Positions 958 through 17,336 of a stretch of DNA of 38,387 nucleotides are shown here, piece by piece. The notes beneath the pieces are model-generated. The model was not told the origin of the DNA. It ran no database searches and saw nothing but the letters and a program-made list of their open reading frames with translations. Positions within the stretch are counted from its first letter, which is position 1. Each line of letters begins with the position of its first letter. Source of the stretch: a virus; the IMG/VR virus record IMGVR_UViG_3300035195_000275, positions 1-38,387 of that record; one strand, written 5' to 3'. Both the position numbers and the translations under genes were made by a program.

Positions 958-2186
958 TGAGTTGGAGGCATAGAGATATATTAGAAGGAGAATTACACGA
1001 GGCTAAAGGATTTACAACTGCTAACAATGGTGATAGCATTTGGAGAAATGAAGAAGGTTTAAGTGAATGGACAGATAGAGAAGTTCTACCTGCTGCACTT
1101 AACTTTGTAGATGCAAGCGTAGCACCACCAACTACAGCAAATGGTGATATTTACGTTCTTTCTTTAGGTGCTTCTATTCATGCAAATTGGGGTACTGTAG
1201 CTTTAAAGGATTGGGTACGTTATGATGGTTCTTCATGGAATGTTATAACACCTAGTAAATCTATTCTATGTTATGATAAGACTTTAGATGTTTTAATGTC
1301 TTATGATGGTTCTGTATGGGCTTCTATCGGTGGTGGTGGTGGTGAGGTTAATACGTCTTCTAATAGTGGTGCAGGTGAAGGATTAGCATTATCTAAAGTA
1401 GGTTCTGATTTACCATTTAAAAGTATTACAGCAGGAACAGGAATTACTTTAACATCTAGTGCTAGTGAATTAGAAATAAGTTCTGCTGGTGGATCAAATA
1501 CAAATTTAGCTACTAACGATTTAACACAAACTGATTTAGTAAGAACTTATACAAGGTCTTCTGCTTCAGGTACTTCAAAATTGAGATTTAAAGGGGCAAG
1601 TAGTTCTTACCAATTTGAAGATGCAGGACCAATAAGTCTTTATACGGGTAACGCTGACGCGAATCCATATCCTGGTATTTCACTTTCTTCGGGGGGAGGT
1701 AATACGGGCGAAATTTCTTTTAGAGGTGGTAAAGCTACAATACAAGGTGCATCAAGCAGTTTATTTTTAAGGGGTATCGCTGATAATTCAACTTTTGTTT
1801 CTTTAATACAATTAGGGACGGATATATTAATCAATCCTAATAACAACAGAACACTAACAATTGCTAGTGACAATACAGTTTTTAAAAATAGTGCTGAAAA
1901 CACTTTTTATGGAAATATAGATAGTGATGTTTTTATATGGTCTTCACAGTCTACATTGCCAGCAGCTATAGGAAGTGAAAAATTTAGTATTCAAGAAGAC
2001 ACTTTAGTTAAAGGATCTGACACTTCAGCAAGTACGACGGGTTTTAAGGTTACAGACTCGACCAATGATAGCTTATTAGAAGTAAAGAACAACGGAGTAA
2101 TTAATGCGTCTAATTTGCCTACATCTTCAGCAGGTTTATCTAGTGGTGATATTTGGAATAATTCAGGGGTTTTAAACATAGTATAA
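957..2186 (+). CDS. Fibre/appendage-like structural protein with DUF2793-like N-terminus
   Basis: A 409-residue protein. Residues about 40-125 resemble the DUF2793 region of phage fibre proteins: alternating Asp/Gly/Trp strands such as WVRYDGSSWNVITP and a second VLMSYDGSVWASI. A five-glycine hinge follows at about 126-130. The remainder is a low-complexity, Ser/Thr/Asn/Gly-rich beta-strand repeat region typical of trimeric fibres. The C-terminal tip (GDIWNNSGVLNIV) is a pattern often seen at the end of marine flavobacterial phage fibres. It is co-transcribed with portal and connector genes and precedes the lysis genes. A role in adsorption, or as a head fibre given the head-gene neighbours, is inference. 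Confidence 0.6.
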   Translation: MSWRHRDILEGELHEAKGFTTANNGDSIWRNEEGLSEWTDREVLPAALNFVDASVAPPTTANGDIYVLSLGASIHANWGTVALKDWVRYDGSSWNVITPSKSILCYDKTLDVLMSYDGSVWASIGGGGGEVNTSSNSGAGEGLALSKVGSDLPFKSITAGTGITLTSSASELEISSAGGSNTNLATNDLTQTDLVRTYTRSSASGTSKLRFKGASSSYQFEDAGPISLYTGNADANPYPGISLSSGGGNTGEISFRGGKATIQGASSSLFLRGIADNSTFVSLIQLGTDILINPNNNRTLTIASDNTVFKNSAENTFYGNIDSDVFIWSSQSTLPAAIGSEKFSIQEDTLVKGSDTSASTTGFKVTDSTNDSLLEVKNNGVINASNLPTSSAGLSSGDIWNNSGVLNIV

Positions 2187-2196
2187 AAATAAAGAT

Positions 2197-2571
2197 ATGA
2201 TTACAATAACATTAAATGAAGAAAGTGCAATAACAGTAGGTGAACTATCTGTATATCCATCTAAAGAAAAGATAACAGGTTTTGTAGATGTTAAAACTAA
2301 TGGAGTTAGTTGGTACTTTTCTAGCATTTGGAAATATGGAACTTCTGAAGAGTTTAAAGATGAAAAAGCTGTTACTTTTGATAATTTGCCTTTTGGTTTA
2401 GATAGGTTTATATTAAATGAAGAAGGAGAAGAAAACTACCCTACAACAGATGGTGGTTATACAGATTATAGAGTAATGATTTATAGAGCTTGTGATATGT
2501 ATAAACAAGTTTTAGAAAAAGAATACCCTAATTTAGAAGGACAAATAGAAGTAACTGGAATGCCTAAATAA
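2197..2571 (+). CDS. Hypothetical protein, 124 aa
   Basis: I do not recognise this gene. It encodes a mixed alpha/beta acidic protein with an N-terminal strand-rich half (MITITLNEESAITVGEL) and a C-terminal helix rich in Tyr, Lys and Glu (RACDMYKQVLEKEYPNL). No signal peptide or membrane segment is visible. It starts 10 bases after the fibre-like gene, with an A-rich leader (aaaaataaagatATG) and no Shine-Dalgarno site, as is usual in Bacteroidetes. Its position between a fibre gene and DUF1353 suggests a small virion, fibre-accessory or assembly protein. Confidence 0.5.
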   Translation: MITITLNEESAITVGELSVYPSKEKITGFVDVKTNGVSWYFSSIWKYGTSEEFKDEKAVTFDNLPFGLDRFILNEEGEENYPTTDGGYTDYRVMIYRACDMYKQVLEKEYPNLEGQIEVTGMPK

Positions 2572-5460: not shown

Positions 5461-6849
5461 ATGAAACAAATTAAATTATTTAATCAAAAAGTTGAAATGA
5501 TTAGCGTAGAATCTGTAATAGGATCAGGCTATGAAGAAGAAGTAGCTAAATTAGCTATTGAAGATAAAATAGCTTACAGGGCTGCTAGAAAAAATATGCA
5601 AATACATTCAGCTATTATATTAAAAGTTGATGATGAGTTTGCAGGGTTTTTTACTTTTGAAATAAACCACGATGCTAAAGAATATTGTTTATTACAATCT
5701 GCAATGTATCCTAAATTTAAAGATGTAGAAATTTATCAAAGCATGGTAAATAAAATAATTGAAGGTAATACATATGGTTATCCTATGATAATGACAGTTT
5801 CAAAAAAACACGATTTAGAAAAGCCTTCTGTATTTGAAGAAATAGGATTTAAAGTAAACTTAGATAAAAATGATTTTAAATATATTTATTATGGAGAAGC
5901 TGAACAGGTTAGAATGAAACTTTTAGCACATACTGCAATGACTAATCTTTGGAGGTCTACATCGGGTTTATGGCTTAAAAATAAAAGATCATGGAACGCT
6001 AGAATAGATGAAGCTGGAGATAAAAACAAAGTAGCTAATCCTAGATTTGCTAGTCGTGAGGGATGTTGGCAAGGTTCTAAAGGTTTTTCAAATGTTGTAT
6101 TATCTAAAAATAAAATAATTAAAGGTAAAATAGTTCATGATGATAAAAAAACATTAAACGGTAACGCATCTGTTTTAGACCCTACTGCTTGTGAAATAAT
6201 AGCACGTTTCTTTATGCCTAAAAATGGTTCTCATGTTTATAATCCATTTGGTGGTGGTGTTCAAATGGGTTTTGTTGCTGGTGGTTGTGGTTTTAGCTAT
6301 GAATCTTCAGAAATAAGACAAAACCAATGTGATACTAATAATGATATTTGTAAAGATTTTGATAATGTTAAATGGCACTTATCAGATACTAGTAAATATA
6401 TTCCTAAAGTAAAAAGTGATTTAACTTTTAGCTGCCCACCTTATTATAGAGTTGAAAAATATATAGATTATGATGGTTTACCACCTGAAGGAGAAATAAA
6501 TCATTTAGGAAGCTATGAAGAATTTAGAGATACTTTATTTAAAGGATATAAAAACGCAATAAAAGCAATGAAAGATAATACTTTTTTTGTCGTAATGACA
6601 GGTGATAGTAGAGATAAAAACGGTGCTTATTATGGTTGTGAAGCTGAACATGAATTATTTTTTAAAGAACAAGGGTTACATATTTATAATAAAGTTATTT
6701 ATTTAGAAAGTGAGTTTACAAGGTTTTCACAAGCTAAAAAAACATTACACAGTAGAAAATACCCTAAAGCAGATCAAAAAATATATATGTTTTATAAAGG
6801 AGATATGACTAAAATTAAAGAGTTATATCCTAATATTGGAAGATTATAA
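5461..6849 (+). CDS. GNAT-like domain fused to DNA methyltransferase-like domain
   Basis: A 462-residue two-domain protein. Residues about 48-135 follow the GNAT strand order: an IHSAIILKVDDEFAGFF hairpin, a core strand YCLLQSAMYP, a helix, YPMIMTVSK, and the typical closing VFEEIGFKV at 124-132. The usual acetyl-CoA loop (Q/RxxGxG/A) is not evident. Residues about 235-450 are an AdoMet-dependent MTase of the phage DPTxCEI type: LDPTACEIIARFF at 239-251, motif I NPFGGG at 261-266, and the catalytic SCPPYY at 324-329, the form used by amino-methylating (N6A/N4C) enzymes. Many phage relatives have a ParB-like N-terminus instead. The next gene overlaps by one base (TAATG). Likely modifies phage DNA; base and group added are unknown. 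Confidence 0.7.
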   Translation: MKQIKLFNQKVEMISVESVIGSGYEEEVAKLAIEDKIAYRAARKNMQIHSAIILKVDDEFAGFFTFEINHDAKEYCLLQSAMYPKFKDVEIYQSMVNKIIEGNTYGYPMIMTVSKKHDLEKPSVFEEIGFKVNLDKNDFKYIYYGEAEQVRMKLLAHTAMTNLWRSTSGLWLKNKRSWNARIDEAGDKNKVANPRFASREGCWQGSKGFSNVVLSKNKIIKGKIVHDDKKTLNGNASVLDPTACEIIARFFMPKNGSHVYNPFGGGVQMGFVAGGCGFSYESSEIRQNQCDTNNDICKDFDNVKWHLSDTSKYIPKVKSDLTFSCPPYYRVEKYIDYDGLPPEGEINHLGSYEEFRDTLFKGYKNAIKAMKDNTFFVVMTGDSRDKNGAYYGCEAEHELFFKEQGLHIYNKVIYLESEFTRFSQAKKTLHSRKYPKADQKIYMFYKGDMTKIKELYPNIGRL

Positions 6850-7616
6850 TGAGAAGTTATAGCAAGAAAATTACCCTTACCAAAAATGGTAGGGGTATTT
6901 GGACAATAGACCCTATAATGGGCTGTAAGTCTGGAGTTGAAAAAGATAAAAAAGGTTGTTTTTCTGATTGTTATGCTGCAAGAAATGCTAGAATATATGG
7001 ATATGACTTTACAGAAAACATATTAAGAGATTTTGAAGATGAAAAACATTTAAAATCTATAATTACAAAAGCTAATAAATTAAAATTTGAATTTATAAGA
7101 ATGGGTAACTCAGGTGATCCTAGTGAAAATTGGGATCATACAATAAAAATATTAGAAAAACTTAAACCAATAAATAAAGAATTTGTAATTATTACAAGGC
7201 ATTGGAATAAATTAAATTTAGAGCAGTTAAAAAGAATTAGTAAATTAAAAGTTTGTATTAATACTTCTATATCTCCTATTGATGATGATTTACATGGTAA
7301 TATTGAGCAATATGAAATATTAAAAAATTATTGTAAATCTGTTTTAAGGTGTGTATCATTTAATTTTAACACAGATAATAAAAAAGGTATGGATTATGAT
7401 CTTATACAAAATTGGATTTTTCATAAATATGATGTTTTAGATACCGTTTTTAGATGTAGTAAATCTAATCCTTTATATAAAGAAGGAATTATAAAAATAA
7501 AAGAAACTAAATTTTTAGGTAAAAAATGTTATGTTTCTAAAAATAATCCTAAGACATATTTTGGTAACTGTGAAAATTGTTTAGAAAAATGTGGTGTTAA
7601 AATGAAAGAAACATAA
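6849..7616 (+). CDS. Three-Cys-motif protein (DUF5131 / Gp37-Gp68-like, radical-SAM-like)
   Basis: A 255-residue protein with WTIDPIMGCKSGVEKDKKG then CFSDCYAARNA, giving Cys26, Cys37 and Cys41. This is the layout of the phage DUF5131 (Gp37/Gp68) family, whose three clustered Cys and downstream strands (IRMGNSGDP, EFVIITRHWNKL, VCINTSIS) resemble a radical-SAM TIM barrel. A second Cys cluster lies near the C-terminus (Cys227, 241, 244, 248), which could hold another metal or FeS centre. It overlaps the fusion methyltransferase by one base and the MazG-like gene by one base, so the three proteins should be made together. Enzymatic activity is not established for this family. Confidence 0.65.
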   Translation: MRSYSKKITLTKNGRGIWTIDPIMGCKSGVEKDKKGCFSDCYAARNARIYGYDFTENILRDFEDEKHLKSIITKANKLKFEFIRMGNSGDPSENWDHTIKILEKLKPINKEFVIITRHWNKLNLEQLKRISKLKVCINTSISPIDDDLHGNIEQYEILKNYCKSVLRCVSFNFNTDNKKGMDYDLIQNWIFHKYDVLDTVFRCSKSNPLYKEGIIKIKETKFLGKKCYVSKNNPKTYFGNCENCLEKCGVKMKET

Positions 7617-7921
7617 TGAAAGAGTTAATAGAAGATAATTATAAAACTATAGTAGATAGAGGGTATATAAAGCCCTCTACTACTTATATAGAGTTTATAG
7701 ATAAACTAGATGAAGAAGTAAAAGAATTTAAAACTGCTTTAGACTGGTGGACTAGAAAAGATAGCTTAGGTTTTAAGCCTATGCACATTTCAGTATGTGA
7801 AGAAGTTGCTGATGTTATAATGGTATGTTTAAATTTTGCTAAACATTATAATATAGATATTGAGCAGGAAATAAAAAACAAAATTAAAATAAACGAACAA
7901 AGAGCAAAAGATGGAAAATAA
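7616..7921 (+). CDS. MazG-like nucleotide pyrophosphohydrolase (first of two)
   Basis: A 101-residue all-helical protein with the MazG/dUTPase-superfamily metal site: KLDEEVKEF (Glu33/34 and Glu37) and, 25 residues on, CEEVADVIMV (Glu63, Asp66), i.e. ExxE then ExxD. Such enzymes hydrolyse NTPs or dNTPs to the monophosphate. Its start overlaps the stop of the three-Cys gene and its end overlaps the next gene by 11 bases. In a DNA-modification operon it may clear an unwanted canonical nucleotide or lower an alarmone; both are inference. A second MazG-like gene is at 24637. Confidence 0.7.
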   Translation: MKELIEDNYKTIVDRGYIKPSTTYIEFIDKLDEEVKEFKTALDWWTRKDSLGFKPMHISVCEEVADVIMVCLNFAKHYNIDIEQEIKNKIKINEQRAKDGK

Positions 7922-16679: not shown

Positions 16680-17336
16680 ATGAAGATATTAAACCTTTAC
16701 GCTTGTTTAGGTGGTAACAGATACAAGTGGAATGAAGTAAAAGAAGATATAGAAGTAACTGCAATTGAGTTAGACCCAGAGTTAGCTAAATTATATCAAG
16801 AAAGGTTTCCTAATGATAAAGTAATAGTTGCAGATGCACATCAATATTTGTTAGATTTGAAAAATAATGGAGAGTTAGATTCTTATTCCTTTGTGTGGAG
16901 TTCTCCACCATGCCCTACGCATAGTAAATCACGTTTTGCTAGAAGAAACACAACAGAAGCTAAATTTCCTGACTTAAAACTATATGAAGAAATTATTTTT
17001 TTAGATAAGTGGTTTAAAGGTAAATATGTAATTGAAAATGTAATACCATATTATGAACCTTTAATAACTGCACAAAAACGAGGAAGGCATTTATACTGGA
17101 GTAATATAAAACTACCTAATATTTTAAGTGAAAGGAAAAATAGTTTTATGGAAAGTAAAGATGAAGTTTCTAAGTGGTGTGATTTTCACGATTATAATTT
17201 TAGACAATACAAAGGAAAACAAAGAACAGATAAAATAGCACGGAATTTAGTAGACTATGAAGCAGGTAAAACTATTTTTGAAACTGCATTAGGAATTATT
17301 AAACAAAAAGATACTAAACAAACTGAACTATTTTAA
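16680..17336 (+). CDS. C5 cytosine-specific DNA methyltransferase
   Basis: A 218-residue, short version of the C5-MTase fold. Motif I is ILNLYACLGGNRYKW (3-17), AdoMet-binding acidic residues follow in TAIELDPE (27-34), the catalytic loop is SSPPCPTHS (74-82, Cys78 as nucleophile), and motif VI is IENV (118-121, Glu119). A long variable target-recognition domain is absent, so specificity is probably short or degenerate, as in other small phage enzymes. No partner restriction enzyme is adjacent. It probably protects phage DNA from host restriction. It is a separate unit between two terminators. Confidence 0.82.
   Translation: MKILNLYACLGGNRYKWNEVKEDIEVTAIELDPELAKLYQERFPNDKVIVADAHQYLLDLKNNGELDSYSFVWSSPPCPTHSKSRFARRNTTEAKFPDLKLYEEIIFLDKWFKGKYVIENVIPYYEPLITAQKRGRHLYWSNIKLPNILSERKNSFMESKDEVSKWCDFHDYNFRQYKGKQRTDKIARNLVDYEAGKTIFETALGIIKQKDTKQTELF

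Follow-up and report, generated by a model that had tools for sequence, protein, structure and literature searches.

The window analysed here, meaning the whole stretch of 38,387 nucleotides in the IMG/VR virus record IMGVR_UViG_3300035195_000275, comes from a phage of the tailed type, in which terminase, minor tail protein, ERF and YqaJ genes are present. Amid its replication and recombination genes lie three consecutive ORFs, referred to below as g1, g2 and g3 (Table 1). A previous sequence-only reading had described three ORFs overlapping by single bases, which is correct: both the g1/g2 and the g2/g3 junctions read TAATG, with one base in common. Elsewhere in the window, a short ORF at 16680-17336 resembles C5-cytosine DNA methylases (PF00145, 25 bits), and the phage may thus have a second DNA modifier.

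Table 1. Coordinates of g1, its two domains, g2 and g3 in the window.
Feature	Position	Strand	Properties
g1, GNAT-MTase fusion	5461..6849	+	462 aa; 92 distinct full-length relatives, 55-100% identical
g1 GNAT-fold domain, residues 9-147	5485..5901	+	without Q/RxxGxG/A acetyl-CoA loop
g1 Rossmann MTase domain, residues 149-447	5905..6801	+	NPFGGG 261-266 (motif I-like), SCPPYY 324-329 (motif IV)
g2, radical-SAM-fold enzyme	6849..7616	+	255 aa; Cys26/37/41 (N-terminal) and Cys241/244/248 (C-terminal)
g3, MazG-like protein	7616..7921	+	101 aa; neighbour, probably outside the module

Scans of IMG/VR, one of which returned 217 candidate loci, yielded, at the DNA level, 91 distinct g1 genes of 58-100% identity; g2 is located directly 3' of g1 in 86 of them, a linkage far above chance. 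A g2 locus devoid of g1 was never encountered, a result limited to this sample because the loci were found through g1 or g2. Of the 82 g1-g2 junctions measured, 77 overlap by one base (48) or by four (29). Leaving aside g1 and the ORFs antisense to the cassette, no near-universal third gene family surrounds g1 in 92 neighbourhoods, the next commonest family being found at 45 of the 92 loci. The unit is formed by two genes, g1 and g2, not three. g3 resembles MazG weakly (PF12643, 25.1 bits versus a cut-off of 27), and we rejected MazG as a module component since a MazG-like gene follows the cassette on its 3' side in only 6 of the 76 g1 loci with room for one, a linkage that does not rise far above chance. 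Thus, the three-gene cassette of the earlier reading is retained for g1 and g2, which do co-occur in other phages, and is abandoned for the MazG-like gene.

The module is widespread among many uncultured tailed phages and has so far gone without a name. Our search of open-access PMC returned nothing on the g1-g2 gene pair, and neither the GNAT part of g1 nor g2 was detected in the isolated phages of the collection searched. Against the known defence systems in PADLOC, g1 gave a generic MTase match only and g2 gave none. At one locus (L096:3704-5004) g1 is split, reflecting either decay or an assembly error.

The AlphaFold2 model of g1 (pLDDT 81, pTM 0.82) places a GNAT fold in the N-terminal region, where residues 9-147 superpose on NatC (7rb3; VIA Z 14.7 over 132 residues) and Naa50 (4x5k; 14.3). 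The acetyl-CoA loop, [QRK]xxGx[GA], is present in none of 92 g1 proteins. A second GNAT-MTase gene that stands in tandem with g1 at another locus (L155:5254-5871, cut by the contig end) keeps this loop, as KWKGNGLAKV. This paralogue matches EctA/GNAT models (TIGR02406, 3.8e-9, 36.7 bits versus a cut-off of 120.6) and is 30% identical to the GNAT domain of g1 over 181 residues; a relative that both carries the loop and matches EctA makes the GNAT ancestry of the g1 domain firm. EctA is the diaminobutyrate acetyltransferase, from which the g1 domain differs in its missing CoA loop and in being part of a fusion. A single-sequence scan of IMG/VR yielded no further tandem paralogues of this kind, and neither the paralogue nor g2 was found among annotated phages. 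Within g1, mean conservation is 0.77 for the GNAT residues and 0.83 for the MTase domain; the GNAT domain may be structural only.

The C-terminal region of g1 (residues 149-447) adopts a Rossmann MTase fold with a VIA Z of 18.1 to Trm11 (5e71), and its nearest solved folds are the tRNA m2G MTases (Trm11/TrmN, Z 16-18) and METTL5. Its motif IV reads SCPPY, with a Cys preceding PPY, as compared with the (D/N/S)PP(Y/F) of the amino-MTase type. The model and the missing loop support what had been proposed from the letters alone: a GNAT-like N-terminus that lacks the acetyl-CoA loop and, joined to it, a domain with SCPPYY that is probably of the amino-MTase type. Among sequence families, phrog_498 DNA methyltransferases match this domain at 1.5e-36, and PF01555 matches below its cut-off (2.7e-5, 24.7 bits versus 26.7). 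The closest annotated relatives, at approximately 30% identity, are what we call ParB-MTases, found in Croceibacter phage P2559S, Pseudomonas phage ZRG1 and Mycobacterium phage Vincenzo (gp1), belonging to phrog_498 and carrying the annotation DNA methyltransferase or ParB protein. Their C-terminal MTase domain, with (S/T/G)CPPY, is homologous to that of g1, whereas their N-terminal region is of the ParB type instead of GNAT (PF02195 was detected in ZRG1 and at locus L218), and their usual partner is an AdoMet decarboxylase or a PLP enzyme instead of the radical-SAM-fold g2.

The genes that accompany the ParB-MTases bear on the group that this MTase family might transfer. AdoMet decarboxylase is the next gene in P2559S, in which it overlaps the ParB-MTase gene, and in ZRG1, an ACC-deaminase-type PLP enzyme gene adjoins the MTase gene in Vincenzo (L177:1406-2275), and a PLP-enzyme (PALP) domain is inserted between the MTase motifs in Pam4 (L178:2012-4501) and ZS04 (L184:1093-3531); no such neighbour is annotated in phiFL3A, B054, Funu2, HCTV-2 or prophiGD43A-5. 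Of 80 IMG/VR relatives of the P2559S ParB-MTase (L186-L265), 55 have an AdoMet decarboxylase gene, nearly always directly behind (0.6-0.9 kb away in two, L191 and L253), a rate inflated by seeding the survey with P2559S and hence biasing it to P2559S relatives. The gene is found at 37 of the 40 highest-ranked loci and at 18 of the 40 lower-ranked ones. In the whole phage collection, a P2559S-like AdoMet decarboxylase occurs in only 131 of 50,697 records, mostly cyanophages. The P2559S enzyme has been demonstrated to be an active AdoMet decarboxylase (PMC9992855), and homologues from other phages are reported as ornithine or arginine decarboxylases (PMC10407285). Because these MTase relatives adjoin an AdoMet decarboxylase or carry PLP-enzyme inserts, we suggest that the MTase family of g1 may transfer SAM-derived groups bigger than methyl.

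The ParB-MTase and AdoMet decarboxylase pair may itself be a DNA-modification operon, and our search of open-access PMC found nothing on it. A radical-SAM gene stands beside the ParB-MTase at 1 of the 80 loci only (L218:1730-4153), where radical-SAM gene, ParB-MTase and AdoMet decarboxylase are consecutive and overlapping. We considered AdoMet decarboxylase as the usual partner of g1 and rejected it, since it lies near a single g1 locus (L121), adjoining a separate MTase. At that locus the MTase and AdoMet decarboxylase pair (1053-2298, minus strand) and the g1-g2 cassette (5001 onwards) are approximately 2.7 kb apart.

The model of g2 (pLDDT 93) shows a radical-SAM partial barrel fold; the 15 structural neighbours of highest Z are all chains of radical-SAM enzymes, headed by spore photoproduct lyase (SPL; Z 12.3, 215 residues), and the best E-value obtained by Foldseek against the PDB is only 1.3e-3. 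The N-terminal C-X10-11-C-X3-C and C-terminal CxxCxxxC patterns are kept in all 84 full-length relatives. The canonical CX3CX2C motif is absent from g2 and all of its relatives; g2 matches no Pfam family, no radical-SAM sequence model and no NCBIfam model, that for SPL (TIGR04070) included, and it has no sequence relatives in the PDB. For these reasons we term g2 radical-SAM-like, on the basis of its fold and of the partner exchange described below, and not canonical. The cysteine pattern with its second cluster and the likeness to radical-SAM enzymes had both been recognized in the sequence-only reading, and both hold, the latter through the fold and through the canonical radical-SAM gene that takes the place of g2 elsewhere. 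Membership in DUF5131, also proposed there, is rejected: g2 has no PF07505 match, and a profile comparison gave a probability of 0.9%, with a DUF5131 alignment of three sequences only.

At four loci (L015, L139, L162 and L166), the position of g2 is occupied by a canonical radical-SAM gene with CX3CX2C or a close form of it, beginning at or overlapping the g1 stop. This alternative partner matches Pfam Radical_SAM or the PA0069, mobile-pair and Rv2578c radical-SAM models of NCBIfam (run on L015, L139 and L162; L166 was assigned by similarity to these). The fifth g1 gene without g2 is that at L155, which carries the second GNAT-MTase gene. At L166 the radical-SAM gene is in two ORFs (6389-7245), and at a locus from a bacterial genome only its C-terminal part is present, truncated and without the Cys motif (L169:7569-7835); the second enzyme may be dispensable and decaying there, or these may be assembly errors. 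When 92 g1 proteins were placed on a quickly built maximum-likelihood tree, at least four switches of partner type were required, the truncated gene of L169 being counted in, and well-supported branches force four. Profiles of g2 and of the canonical partner give a weak but collinear alignment (E 0.0014, probability 17%). That two proteins without clear sequence similarity interchange beside g1 suggests equivalent roles, and since one of them is a canonical radical-SAM protein, a radical-SAM role of g2 is supported. A gene of the same radical-SAM type, 63% to that of L139, is found in the gut phage MT835521 (L270:3315-4837) near a DNA cytosine MTase-like gene, as judged by eye; the portion of sequence read there contains no g1.

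At four further loci (L170-L173), from MAGs or assemblies of Thermodesulfobacteriota and Spirochaetota, g2 is upstream of g1 and the two form one stop-free frame of 731-747 codons, as measured from the aligned g2 start to the g1 end. Short g2-g1 linkers could be open by chance, which is unlikely to explain four of four in frame. At L172 and L173, a ribosome-binding-site-like sequence and an ATG are present at the g1 start, so that g1 might also be translated separately there.

The folds, linkage, partner exchange, in-frame fusion, Cys conservation and CoA-loop loss described above incline us, by somewhat more than an even chance, to the view that g1 and g2 constitute a mobile module of phages, composed of two genes that are sometimes fused, for the enzymatic hypermodification of DNA bases. 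We infer DNA as the substrate by homology; the chemistry, the order of steps and the protective role set out here are proposals. First, the MTase domain of g1 would move a group from SAM or a SAM derivative onto the exocyclic amine of an adenine or a cytosine of the phage genome; g2 would then act by radical chemistry on this modified base or on the newly attached group; and the GNAT-derived domain, without a standard acetyl-CoA loop, would bind or process this group. The group placed on the phage's own bases is probably larger than methyl, and the resulting bulky base could shield the phage genome from host nucleases, possibly as camouflage from bacterial defences. A more specific and only tentative version is that the MTase-fold domain would transfer an aminoalkyl group to the exocyclic amine, either aminopropyl supplied by decarboxylated SAM or 3-amino-3-carboxypropyl supplied by SAM; the resulting amine-bearing arm would be handled by the GNAT-derived domain and functionalized on DNA by the SPL-like radical-SAM enzyme.

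By analogy, the nearest precedents of such a module are CmoX (PMC12783734) and Mom (PMC7824862). CmoX uses carboxy-SAM to put a handle on DNA, and the CmoA/CmoX/CmoY carboxymethylcytosine system resembles our proposal in that a phage MTase homologue employs a SAM derivative and provides a handle for hypermodification (PMC12783734). CmoX is a C5-cytosine MTase and hence of a family distinct from that of g1, which is probably of the amino-MTase type and has a radical-SAM-fold partner; neither CmoA nor a ligase is encoded by any gene family recurrent around g1. Mom of phage Mu is a DNA modifier with a GNAT fold (PMC7824862), to which we liken g1 by description only: the fold is common to both and base modification is proposed for g1, where, unlike in Mom, the GNAT fold is joined to an MTase and a radical-SAM-fold enzyme accompanies it. 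The MTase relatives suggest SAM-derived groups rather than Mom chemistry specifically.

The fold of g2 is closest to that of SPL, which acts on DNA, and the sequence kin of the alternative partner are PA0069/Rv2578c-type radical-SAM proteins; g2 is distinguished from both by its two Cys patterns and by matching no radical-SAM sequence model. A rival account takes g1 for an orphan DNA methyltransferase of the ordinary sort (N6-adenine or N4-cytosine), with an N-terminal GNAT relic that only binds DNA, and g2 for an SPL-like lesion repair enzyme or demodifier travelling along: the top PDB fold for g2 is SPL, the alternative partner matches SPL-type families, and the C-terminus of g1 matches DNA methyltransferase families. 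We consider this unlikely, since the near-obligate pairing, the four or more exchanges between radical-SAM types and the in-frame fusion are hard to square with independent repair, and the GNAT residues are conserved to nearly the level of the MTase domain.

Slightly more doubtful is that the pair acts on tRNA, rRNA or a host protein and not on DNA. The nearest solved folds lean in that direction, being tRNA m2G MTases and METTL5 for the MTase domain and protein N-acetyltransferases for the GNAT domain, and radical-SAM enzymes acting on tRNA or peptides are numerous; however, the g1 MTase sequence groups with the phage ParB-MTases and phrog_498 DNA methyltransferases, SCPPYY resembles the motifs of DNA amino-MTases, and the module is located amid replication and recombination genes. 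The least probable alternative, that g2 acts on the cofactor and makes a SAM derivative for the g1 MTase to transfer, as CmoA supplies carboxy-SAM to CmoX (PMC12783734), has in its favour that precedent, the AdoMet decarboxylase (at 55 of 80 loci) or PLP enzymes that accompany MTase relatives and the activity of the P2559S decarboxylase (PMC9992855), but the nearest fold to g2 belongs to a DNA-acting enzyme, and L218 holds a radical-SAM gene and an AdoMet decarboxylase together, so that the radical-SAM step there is not simply a substitute for AdoMet decarboxylase.

We therefore return to base hypermodification by g1 and g2, two genes that remain linked even where the partner is exchanged, the order reversed or the frames fused. 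Should DNA be their substrate, radical chemistry and a GNAT-MTase fusion would join the repertoire of phage DNA hypermodification, together with an MTase family tied to AdoMet decarboxylase, and certain AdoMet decarboxylases of phages, that of P2559S among them, would have a reason to be present other than polyamine synthesis. If an aminoalkyl group is indeed what is transferred, the module would represent a class of DNA hypermodification in which radical-SAM chemistry takes place on DNA itself, and the ParB-MTase/AdoMet decarboxylase operons would be its simpler sisters.
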